Part shown: positions 34,292 to 36,602 of the stretch, piece by piece | Numbering within the stretch: the stretch's first letter is position 1 | How the letters are laid out: each line of letters begins with the position of its first letter | Origin: Piscinibacter sp. | GTDB taxonomy: Bacteria; Pseudomonadota; Gammaproteobacteria; Burkholderiales; Burkholderiaceae_C | Direction of reading: 5' to 3' | Assembly: GCA_017983795.1 (NCBI GenBank) | Contig: JAGOAS010000019.1 | Coordinates: 35,036 to 99,035 of the forward strand | Length of the DNA: 64,000 nt | Made by a program: the position numbers and the translations under genes | The notes under the pieces: generated by a model | Database searches by the model: none | What the model saw: the letters and a program-made list of their open reading frames with translations, nothing else | What the model was told of the DNA's origin: nothing

Positions 34292-34681
34292 TCAGACGAA
34301 GGCGAGCAGCCCGAGCGCGCTCTTGGTGATCGCGGTGGCGACGATCTGCGCGAAGCACAGCAGCGCCGCCAGCCAGGCCGCGATGCGCACGCCGCGCGGC
34401 CGCGTCGGCTTGAGCGCCAGCATGCCCAGGACTATGTAGGCGAGCAGCCCGACGATCTTGGCGCCCAGCCAGGGCGTGGTGAGCGGATTCAGGCGCAGCG
34501 TCCAGGCCAGCGTGATGGCCGAGACGAGCAGCACCGTGTCGACGATGTGCGGCAAGGTGCGCGCCGCGCGGCTGCGCACCCAGGCCGCATCGGTCAGCGC
34601 GGCCGCGCCGCGGGCGACGAAGCCCGTGATCGAGAGCGTCACCGCGCTCTGGTGGATGAGCTTGAGGGTGAAGTAGTCCAT
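34292..34681 (-). CDS. SirB2-family membrane protein
   Basis: 129 residues, four membrane segments. MDYFTLKLIHQSAVTLSITGFVARG is the SirB2 opening, LPHIVDTVLLVSAITLAW and WLGAKIVGLLAYIVLGMLAL the middle part. The name comes from invasion gene regulation in Salmonella, but the family is broad in proteobacteria and the molecular role is unknown; a heme- or quinone-linked role has been suggested by fold. Converges with the helicase (stop bases adjacent). Its upstream region holds two large hairpins. Confidence 0.88.
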   Translation of the reverse strand: MDYFTLKLIHQSAVTLSITGFVARGAAALTDAAWVRSRAARTLPHIVDTVLLVSAITLAWTLRLNPLTTPWLGAKIVGLLAYIVLGMLALKPTRPRGVRIAAWLAALLCFAQIVATAITKSALGLLAFV

Positions 34682-34717
34682 GTCGGTTCAGTCGTTCCAC
34701 CGATGTTCCACCGAGCA

Positions 34718-34790
34718 CGGCGAGGGCGTGGCCTGCCGGTCTGTGCGCGACCCGATATCCGTGCTCGACCGGCAGGCCACGCCCTCGCCG
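34718..34790 (+). repeat. hairpin element A (24-bp stem, 25-nt loop)
   Basis: Arms 34718-34741 and 34767-34790 are perfectly complementary over 24 bases. The 25-base loop is 34742-34766 and has GATATC near its middle. In the opposite orientation, element B (34836-34908) has the same loop with one change. GAGCACGG just before and into the stem (34713-34720) can also pair with CCGTGCTC at the loop end (34759-34766), so a second fold competes. No T-tract, no known family recognised. Confidence 0.9.
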
Positions 34791-34835
34791 AAGCAGCACC
34801 GAGTATGTCGGGAATCGCGAACCCCGGTGGTGGCA

Positions 34836-34908
34836 CGGCGTGGGCCGGGCAGGCGGGGCGAGCACGGATATCGGGCCGCGCACAGCCCCGCCTGCCCGGC
34901 ACACGCCG
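34836..34908 (-). repeat. hairpin element B, same loop, covarying stem
   Basis: Arms 34836-34859 and 34885-34908 pair over 24 bases with one mismatch (34843 with 34901). The loop 34860-34884, read on the minus strand, equals the element A loop at 24 of 25 bases. Comparing stems in loop orientation, seven of the 24 positions differ from A with both partners changed so pairing is kept. Lies between the nnrS stop and the SirB2 start. Confidence 0.9.
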
Positions 34909-34938
34909 CGCGCCGATGTCGCGCGCGAAGCCGGCCAA

Positions 34939-36132
34939 TCAGCCCGGCTTGCCGTCGAGCCGCGGGCGGATGAGGAAGGGCGCGTAGCGGATCGCGTAGA
35001 GCATGAAGCCGCAGGCCCACAGCCAGCCCGAGACCATCGCCGCGCCGACGGTGAACTGCGGCGCCACCAGCGGCACGCCCACGCGCACCAGCGCCGCGGC
35101 GAGCACGCACAGGTAGCAGGCGACGTCGAAACGGTCGGAGCGCAGCGGCCGCGCGGTGTGGCCGCGTGCGGTGCGCGTCATCATGCCGATCGTCATGCCG
35201 CCGATCGCGCCGGCGGTGAGCGCATGCGTGGCCACCGAGGCGACGATCAGGCCCGCTTCGGCGCAAGCGCGCAGCGCGAGGTGCAGCACGATGAAGGCAT
35301 AGGCCGCGTGCAGCACCCACACCAGCGGCGTGCGCAGCGTGCGCCAGGGCTGCCACAGGTAGAGCCGCGCAGCATGCAGCGCCGCGGCGAGCGCGAGCAG
35401 CACGGCCATGGCCGCGCCGTGCAGCCCGGCCAGATCGGCCGCCAGCAGCGCCAGCACCGCGCCAAGCGCGAAGCGCTCCAGCGTCTCGTTGCGGCGTGCC
35501 TGCACGCCGGGCACGCCGTTGTTGGTAAACATCGGGATGACGCGCCCGCCCATCACCGCCATCACGAAGATCATCAGGTCGAGTGCCACCTGCACGCCCA
35601 CCCAGCCGGGCAGCGTGAGCACGCCCAGCTGCGCGAGATGCAGCGTGAACTGCGCGATGCCGAAGGCGAACAGCACGCCGACGAAGAAGTAGTTGCGCTT
35701 GTTGCGCGCGCGGTAGAGCGGGATGGCCAGGCCGATGCCCGCAGCGATCGGGAACGCCGCGTTCACCACCGCCGCCACCCAGCCGAAGGGCGTCAGCACC
35801 AGCACGCGGCCGGCCAGCCACAGCAGCGCCAGCAAGGCCAGCGGCAGCCCGGTGGGCGTGGGCTGGCCCGACCAGTTGCGCCCGGCGGTGAAGAGGAAGC
35901 CCACCACCACCGCGAGCGCGTAGCCGAACAGCATCTCGTGCGCGTGCCACAGCGGCCCGGCGAGATAGGGTCGGCCCAGCCAGCCGCTGAACTGCAGCGC
36001 CCACAGCAGCACCGAGAGCGCCGCGAAGCTGCTGGCCAGCAGGTAGAAGGGGCGGAAACCCAGTTCCCAGAGCGCGAAGCCGCGTCCGGGCTGAGGCTTG
36101 GGTTCTTCGATGTTGAGCAGCACCGTGGTCAT
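34939..36132 (-). CDS. nnrS: NnrS-family heme/copper membrane protein
   Basis: 397 residues, about twelve membrane segments. Conserved NnrS marks: LGFRPFYLLASSFAALSV, GPLWHAHEMLFGYALAVVVGFLFTA (paired His), GGRVIPMFTNN, and ATHALTAGAIGGMTIGMMTRTARGHT. NnrS proteins help cells withstand nitric oxide. Start at 36132 overlaps the nsrR stop by 4 bases, so it is the gene directly downstream of its regulator. The longer reading frame upstream overlaps nsrR and is not used. Confidence 0.94.
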   Translation of the reverse strand: MTTVLLNIEEPKPQPGRGFALWELGFRPFYLLASSFAALSVLLWALQFSGWLGRPYLAGPLWHAHEMLFGYALAVVVGFLFTAGRNWSGQPTPTGLPLALLALLWLAGRVLVLTPFGWVAAVVNAAFPIAAGIGLAIPLYRARNKRNYFFVGVLFAFGIAQFTLHLAQLGVLTLPGWVGVQVALDLMIFVMAVMGGRVIPMFTNNGVPGVQARRNETLERFALGAVLALLAADLAGLHGAAMAVLLALAAALHAARLYLWQPWRTLRTPLVWVLHAAYAFIVLHLALRACAEAGLIVASVATHALTAGAIGGMTIGMMTRTARGHTARPLRSDRFDVACYLCVLAAALVRVGVPLVAPQFTVGAAMVSGWLWACGFMLYAIRYAPFLIRPRLDGKPG

Positions 36133-36602
36133 GGTAGAGCCTTCGCCGCGGCGGCGCGAGGCCGCTCGCGGTCGATGAAGAGCAGGCGCGAGATCGTCGC
36201 GCGCTGTTGAACGAGATCGGCCAGCGTATAGCCGTCGAGCACGGCGTCGAAGGCCGCGGTGGCCTCGCGCAAGGCGCCGTGCAGGCGGCACACGCGGGCG
36301 ATGGTGCAATGGCGCGCGTCGTCGTCGAAGCATTCGGCCGGCGTGGCGCCGCCCTCGGCGCGGCGCACCACCTCGCCGACGACCAGCGCGCTTGCGTCGC
36401 AACCCAGCGCCAGCCCGCCGCCCTTGCCGCGCACCGTGGCCACCCAGCCCTGCTGGGCGAGGAAGTGCACGACCTTGGTCAGGTGGTTCTCCGACACCTC
36501 GAAGGCCTGCGCGATCTCGGCGATCGTGGCGCGCCGGCCCGGTTCGCAGGCCAGGTAGATCAGCACGCGCAGGCTGTAGTCGGTGAAGCGGGTCAGGCGC
36601 AT
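36129..36602 (-). CDS. nsrR: Rrf2-family NO-sensing repressor NsrR
   Basis: 157 residues. Opening MRLTRFTDYSLRVLIYLA is that of NsrR; winged-helix core FEVSENHLTKVVHFLAQQGWVATVRGKGGGL. Iron-sulfur ligands Cys91, Cys99 and Cys105 (CFDDDARHC..VC) with the beta-proteobacterial spacing 8 and 6. NO damages the cluster and frees the target genes. Two NsrR-like boxes are in the divergent region 36924-36991 upstream, so its targets include the DUF2249 gene and the DUF59 operon; nnrS follows in its own operon. Confidence 0.94.
   Translation of the reverse strand: MRLTRFTDYSLRVLIYLACEPGRRATIAEIAQAFEVSENHLTKVVHFLAQQGWVATVRGKGGGLALGCDASALVVGEVVRRAEGGATPAECFDDDARHCTIARVCRLHGALREATAAFDAVLDGYTLADLVQQRATISRLLFIDRERPRAAAAKALP

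Follow-up and report, generated by a model that had tools for sequence, protein, structure and literature searches.

In a Piscinibacter genome, the stop codon of an nnrS gene and the start codon of sirB2, its neighbor in the operon, stand 257 bp apart, and two long hairpins in opposite orientation lie in the gap. The question raised by this locus is what such a structure is and how an operon can accommodate it. Insertions within operons are usually expected to harm expression; the element described here suggests survival by carrying its own reading frame. The window (the whole stretch of 64,000 nt that was analysed) holds one copy of what is probably a non-autonomous, dispersed insertion element that occupies tight stop/start junctions of operons and keeps the neighboring genes coupled through a bridging frame. 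The features of the locus are as follows.

34292 to 34681, minus strand: downstream operon gene, SirB family (Pfam PF04247, E 4.4e-39), its start codon 21 nt from the element edge
34639 to 34938, minus strand: mini-ORF across the element, 99 codons, with a TTG start right after the nnrS stop and reaching 40 nt into sirB2
34694 to 34717, no strand assigned: A-side element end CCACCGAGC, containing an 11-bp tandem duplication that includes a 10-base direct repeat
34718 to 34790, plus strand: hairpin A, with a 24-bp stem and a 25-nt near-constant loop, adjoining the start of the downstream gene
34791 to 34835, no strand assigned: spacer of 45 nt with partial CCACCACCGAGCGCG-like repeats of the unit ends
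34836 to 34908, minus strand: hairpin B, the hairpin A unit inverted
34909 to 34917, no strand assigned: B-side end, CGCGCCGAT in the window and CGCTCC.. in most copies, the inverted partner of the A-side end
34939 to 36402, minus strand: upstream operon gene, NnrS family (Pfam PF05940, E 7.3e-107), start codon uncertain

Paired stems and constant loops

An earlier note on this DNA had described two inverted hairpins whose loops are nearly identical and whose stems have diverged while remaining paired, and a recount bears this out. All 24 stem pairs form in hairpin A and 23 of 24 in hairpin B when the latter is read on the minus strand; the loops agree at 24 of 25 positions, the 5' arms at 16 of 24 and the 3' arms at 17 of 24. 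The 10-base direct repeat reported beside them, GTTCCACCGA, is indeed present at 34694 and 34705. Each hairpin is predicted to fold with about -67 kcal/mol.

A search of the whole genome of the window (G000; 45 contigs, 99.7% complete) with the 241-base region returned 23 matches at 11 places. Among the seven other genomes of the genus, only Piscinibacter aquaticus KACC 15278 (G005; record VOPW01000001.1, 77% complete) carries copies, at 4 places. Because family hairpins number 19 (one of them partial) at the 11 places and 8 at the 4 places, in two species, the twin hairpins are not a product of chance. Further copies with a shared loop and retained pairing had been predicted, and their lack named as the result that would count against the idea; such copies are what was found.

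The element is about 200 bp long and consists of two inverted units of about 100 nt, each a long hairpin with a near-constant loop. The complete copies, eight in G000 and four in G005, measure 188-197 nt between the stem feet, have spacers of 42-51 nt and carry short inverted ends with the typical forms CCACCGAGCGCGGC and GCCGCGCTCCGA. The other three of the 11 G000 copies (L022, L023 and L024) are internally deleted and have lost parts of their hairpins.

Pairing in the stems was followed over 13 A and 13 B hairpins, a set that omits the partial hairpin of L024 and in which L022 contributes no complete A and L023 no complete B. Across these, 96% of stem pair cells hold. Two-sided changes occupy 25 cells in A (shuffled mean 7.4) and 32 in B (shuffled mean 9.6), values that none of 500 shuffles reached for either hairpin, and one-sided G-U cells are few (1 in A and 4 in B). 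The predominance of two-sided over one-sided changes (57 cells against 5) would also be expected if the two arms corrected each other by template switching, in which case the paired changes would arise by mutation and selection would be unnecessary. As a full account this seems rather unlikely, since it leaves unexplained the constant loops, the constancy of second codon positions in hairpin A, the choice of sites and the orientation described below; template switching could act jointly with the insertion and coupling proposed here.

The earlier note had further supposed that the fold matters as RNA or single-stranded DNA, with the loop as the part recognised; to the RNA alternative the stems lend no support. 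In the outer stems, departures from Watson-Crick pairing on the transcript strand comprise 10 G-U and 12 A-C over all rows, or 8 and 11 when the copy between convergent genes (L015) and the reversed copy (L018) are set aside. With G-U and A-C departures about equally common, wobble is not favoured on that strand, and selection on the stem at the RNA level is unsupported. The paired stems and constant loops may be a recognition feature for a mobilising enzyme, probably as folded DNA.

Outer-stem mismatches lean to one strand per hairpin, alike for A and B despite their inversion. On the strand on which both loops read GAGCACGG, the departures are 17 G-T and 5 A-C, a post-hoc count in which some columns recur.

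Insertion at operon junctions

The junction that spans 257 bp between nnrS and sirB2 in the window measures 9-28 bp in four relatives (G007, G005, G001 and G003). Over both species the copies occupy 13 distinct sites, two of which are filled in both (L022/L028 and L023/L026). At 11 of the 13, at least one relative has an empty junction, and the element is therefore an insertion. The two sites outside this count are L015, whose flanking genes lie apart in all seven relatives, and L016; the empty state of L027 is based on two contiguous matches in G000.

The junctions so occupied are tight. At 10 of the 11 sites, in the relatives that were read, the native stop and start lie no more than 28 bp apart, and often the genes overlap or are separated by one base. 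The exception is L018, where the native gap is 42 bp in G005 and about 106 bp in G007. Tightness holds for the relatives read; longer gaps occur, for example, in G002 at L017, L023 and L025, and in G001 and G004 at L025. On a crude gene map of the window, gaps of 1-40 bp between co-directional genes make up 170 of 8,690 intergenic bases (about 2%), so that, with 10 of 11 sites in tight junctions, the class of target that the element occupies is very small.

Genes flanking the element, named from their sequence by eye apart from NnrS and SirB, include those of ABC transporters of the peptide, branched-chain amino acid, nucleoside and glycerol-phosphate types, and the operons concerned look unrelated to each other. 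Co-directional genes flank 12 of the 13 sites; at the remaining one, L015, the genes are convergent. In 11 of the 12 co-directional cases hairpin A is turned towards the start of the downstream gene (hand-calculated two-sided binomial, about 0.006); at L025 that gene is interrupted in G005 and was placed through its counterpart in G000. The sole reversed copy is L018, which occupies the sole roomy junction.

A cis-acting RNA element that sets the ratio of operon gene products, for example an RNase III or RNase E site, an attenuator or an mRNA stabiliser, would owe a common orientation to its function, would be transcribed with the operon and might well have folds as stable as these (about -67 kcal/mol each). 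The shared orientation at 11 of 12 sites is in its favor. The transcript strand shows no preference for wobble (10 G-U, 12 A-C), the target operons look unrelated and are empty at these sites in relatives, and 3 of the 11 G000 copies have dispensed with parts of the hairpins, all of which makes such a function an unlikely explanation of the element.

Insertion by a classical cut-and-paste route is likewise improbable. A MITE moved by a DDE transposase would have terminal inverted repeats and a fixed target duplication, and the short inverted ends and clean empty sites are of the kind expected. Against this, a permutation test over 12 copies gave no evidence of a general target-site duplication (sum 54, mean 54.07, p 0.55), although the single sites L017, L019 and L028 look duplicated and are suggestive, and the margins outside the element ends vary among copies in both length and sequence.

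An unrooted tree of six flanking blocks places G007 with G000 apart from G005 and the rest (local support 1.000); not every block includes all genomes, and one of the six is without G007. Because G007 groups with G000 yet has no copy at all, and is empty at the L022/L028 site, the two sites shared by G000 and G005 imply either that the element entered one junction more than once or that it was lost precisely.

Several further observations concern individual sites. L015 (G000:C3 near 104806) lies at a breakpoint, its flanking genes being separated by 7-10 kb, and carried on opposite strands, in each of the other seven genomes. The L018 junction of one relative (L091, G007:C47) contains a further hairpin-like stretch of the CCCCTCGGGGG...CGAGGGG type. 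L021 and L027, one in each species, lie in the same liv-type operon, which is of the branched-chain amino acid transporter kind; as they occupy different gaps of that operon, they were not taken as one shared site.

Outside these two species, the genomes searched yielded no convincing copy. A covariance model of the hairpin was positive in 2 of the 8 genomes that make up the genus sample (G000 and G005), in 1 of 299 genomes of the family and in 1 of 399 of the order, in both cases G000 itself. With strict filters, and with 16 candidates scored per genome in the family search and 12 in the order search, diverged copies could have been missed; G005, absent from the matches of these searches, was probably not in that sample. 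A single weak hairpin in one of the 399 order genomes (G399, E 8.5e-4) was judged to be chance. The exact loop pattern, searched across the genome collection, occurred in P. aquaticus and in four other records (Massilia, Sediminimonas, an Oscillibacter MAG and an uncultured eubacterium), where it has no flanking arms and was put down to chance. Matches of 28-37 bases in G007, G011 and G018 lie in apparently coding stretches, with hairpin-model scores no better than E 0.9. An origin from phages or plasmids was rejected, as the phage and plasmid collections held no match to the element and viral contigs no exact match to the loop.

An open frame across the element

In the common orientation, the element supplies a short open frame running from at or near the stop codon of the upstream gene to at or near the start codon of the downstream gene. 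A frame was counted as bridging when, on the transcript strand, its start codon lay from -2 to +8 of the upstream stop and its end from -15 to +2 of the downstream start, limits that were chosen after a first look at the copies. Bridging mini-ORFs of 39-91 codons are present in 10 of 12 copies (L017, L019-L024 and L026-L028), and deletion of one or two bases in the middle of each copy reduces the count to 3 of 12 in either case. Counted by site, as two copy pairs share theirs, the figure is 8 of 10. Eight bridging copies start with ATG or GTG and two, L020 and L021, with TTG (L020 also has ATG three bases on). The internally deleted copies L022, L023 and L024 keep the frame open. L016, treated separately, carries an ORF of 81 codons whose position places its end in an ATGA overlap, and the reversed copy L018 has no bridging ORF.

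At the downstream junction, the ATGA overlap is found in 4 of 13 copies (L016, L017, L022 and L028), and the other seven bridging copies end 4 to 14 nt before the start codon. The non-bridging copies are L025 and that of the window (L014). In the latter, the sirB2 start is preceded, at 9 nt, by a TGA whose phase differs from that of the mini-ORF by 2; the shift is attributable to the 11-bp tandem duplication that contains the direct repeat, since 11 mod 3 is 2. This frame-shifting duplication, the insertion into an operon junction and the mini-ORF in most copies are points that go beyond the earlier note.

Codon positions within the frame are unequal. Hairpin A, read in the mini-ORF frame over 12 rows (A23 dropped; L015 and L018, which lie outside the coupled layout, included), differs at 0.156, 0.034 and 0.177 of codon positions 1, 2 and 3. 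The corresponding values for hairpin B, over 11 rows (B28 and B18 dropped; L015, outside the coupled layout, included), are 0.095, 0.108 and 0.167. This pattern fits translation with some constraint on the peptide, weakly for B. In L014, L027 and L028 the frame through hairpin B is a different one, so that what is retained seems to be the openness of the frame and not a particular peptide; the three mini-ORF peptides scanned against Pfam had no match.

Two considerations bear on these counts. Long open frames are expected by chance in GC-rich DNA, and the local layout of stops and starts yields part of the bridging. Secondly, the G005 genes beside L025, L026 and L028 are interrupted, with 61, 265 and 228 codons respectively, where the second and third have 444 and 335 in G000, and indel errors in the G005 assembly may be responsible, so that the G005 frames, including L025, are less sure.

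An operon that holds a bridging copy is probably still translatable despite the insert. Ribosomes could terminate at the upstream stop, re-initiate, cross the element and re-initiate at the downstream gene, by which the coupling of the two operon genes would be kept. From the layout of the copies, translation of the mini-ORF appears likely and may be the reason that such insertions persist. The bridging ORF would also explain the orientation better than would a Shine-Dalgarno sequence supplied by the element.

Known systems and a second hairpin family

The earlier note had assigned the hairpins to no known repeat class. In agreement with this, Rfam had no match at gathering score in four loci, including the window copy and L017, and a second Rfam scan gave only microRNA matches far below their gathering scores, so a known Rfam RNA family was rejected; nor is any GTAG or CGTC tag conserved at the stem foot, as judged by eye. 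Titles and abstract openings retrieved by literature search included none on this element, which does not by itself prove its absence from print. What the claim did not anticipate is that the siting at start codons and the bridging ORF resemble mycobacterial interspersed repetitive units (MIRUs), and the earlier interpretation as a whole is partly supported.

To our knowledge, MIRUs lack long hairpins. The likeness to them lies in layout. At 11 of the 13 distinct sites the A end lies just before a start codon, that of the co-directional gene downstream, and as sequence layout an internal ORF links the neighboring genes in 10 of 12 copies and in L016, against 3 and 3 of 12 in the controls. For the downstream junction a MIRU review gives a spacing of -4 nt, taken here as an ATGA overlap, and the element has this spacing in only 4 of 13 copies. 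Because it occurs in one genus of another phylum, differs in spacing in most copies and has twin covarying hairpins, and because the likeness is one of layout, the element appears to resemble the MIRU strategy and is not classed as a MIRU. If borne out, the strategy described for MIRUs would extend to another phylum, with structures that are both paired and readable, and would provide a means of testing translational coupling and a clue to a mobilising enzyme.

REPINs and BIMEs provide another comparison. According to one account (PMC3116915) they are extragenic, dispersed pairs of inverted palindromic units with a spacer and compensatory changes, and the present element is also an inverted pair of hairpin-forming units. 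By this analogy a RAYT (Y1) transposase would move the pair in single-stranded form, and the mini-ORF would be only tolerated read-through; the 17 G-T against 5 A-C departures on the GAGCACGG strand would suit one recognised strand per hairpin. Such an origin is nevertheless distinctly unlikely. REPINs are tied to RAYTs, and a search for RAYT-type Y1_Tnp transposases gave 0 hits in G000 and G005 (the latter only 77% complete), with 5 of 14 control genomes positive. The element has 24-bp stems, 25-nt loops and a bridging ORF, is nearly confined to operon junctions and occupies 11 places in its genome; according to the REP papers, REP families are often much larger. GTAG and CGTC REPs, as described in PMC3733652, have stems of 5-13 bp and 8-9 bp and hairpins that are often dimers of opposite units, compared with 24 bp and no tag here; the same source indicates that CGTC REPs also seem to be without a dedicated transposase.

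Repetitive hairpin-forming elements of mitochondria, some of them double, are likewise short, dispersed and thought to be mobile, according to PMC2800124. The sponge mitochondrial elements described there have conserved stems and varying loops, the reverse of the Piscinibacter element, belong to organelle genomes and are presented with no mention of a coupled ORF.

At the livM/livH-type junction that holds the twin-hairpin element in G000, G007 carries a different insert, with a bridging ORF of 25 codons (L098, G007:C24). A second family of about 80 bp (MKPPSSLRSLPPEGA...), also with a bridging mini-ORF of about 25 codons, was examined at loci L109-L138. A 23-base pattern taken from the G007 insert, allowing two mismatches or fewer, occurs at 60 places across all 8 genomes of the genus, and the reversed pattern at none. 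The phage collection held no match to it, and the plasmid collection gave matches on replicons of Paraburkholderia, Variovorax, Burkholderia and Azoarcus (11 records).

Among the 30 of 60 copies examined, the ORF bridges with long genes at both ends in 16, at one end in 10 and at neither in 4. Under stricter limits 14 of 30 bridge, compared with 7 and 8 after deletion of one or two bases; the contrast is weaker than in the twin-hairpin family, as the shifted controls reach half the real count. A terminal hairpin is present in 26 of 30; its loop is near-constant, its paired stems are of many kinds and 5-10 bp long (3 bp in two), and the stop codon usually lies inside or adjoining the stem.

The two families may be instances of a broader class in Burkholderiales of mobile 'coupling cassettes', unrelated in sequence and alike in design, a tentative proposal to which we give slightly less than even weight. 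The design would comprise a constant loop, a freely covarying stem and an open mini-ORF that meshes with the stop and start of operon genes, with stop/start targeting by an enzyme not yet described; the instances would be the twin-hairpin family in two species and the 80-bp family in the 8 genus genomes and on other replicons. At the ugp-type junction of L025, G004 has a second-family member in its gap. Because two unrelated families thus occupy the same junctions, it is suggested that this type of junction is itself the target, or that only insertions of this kind survive.
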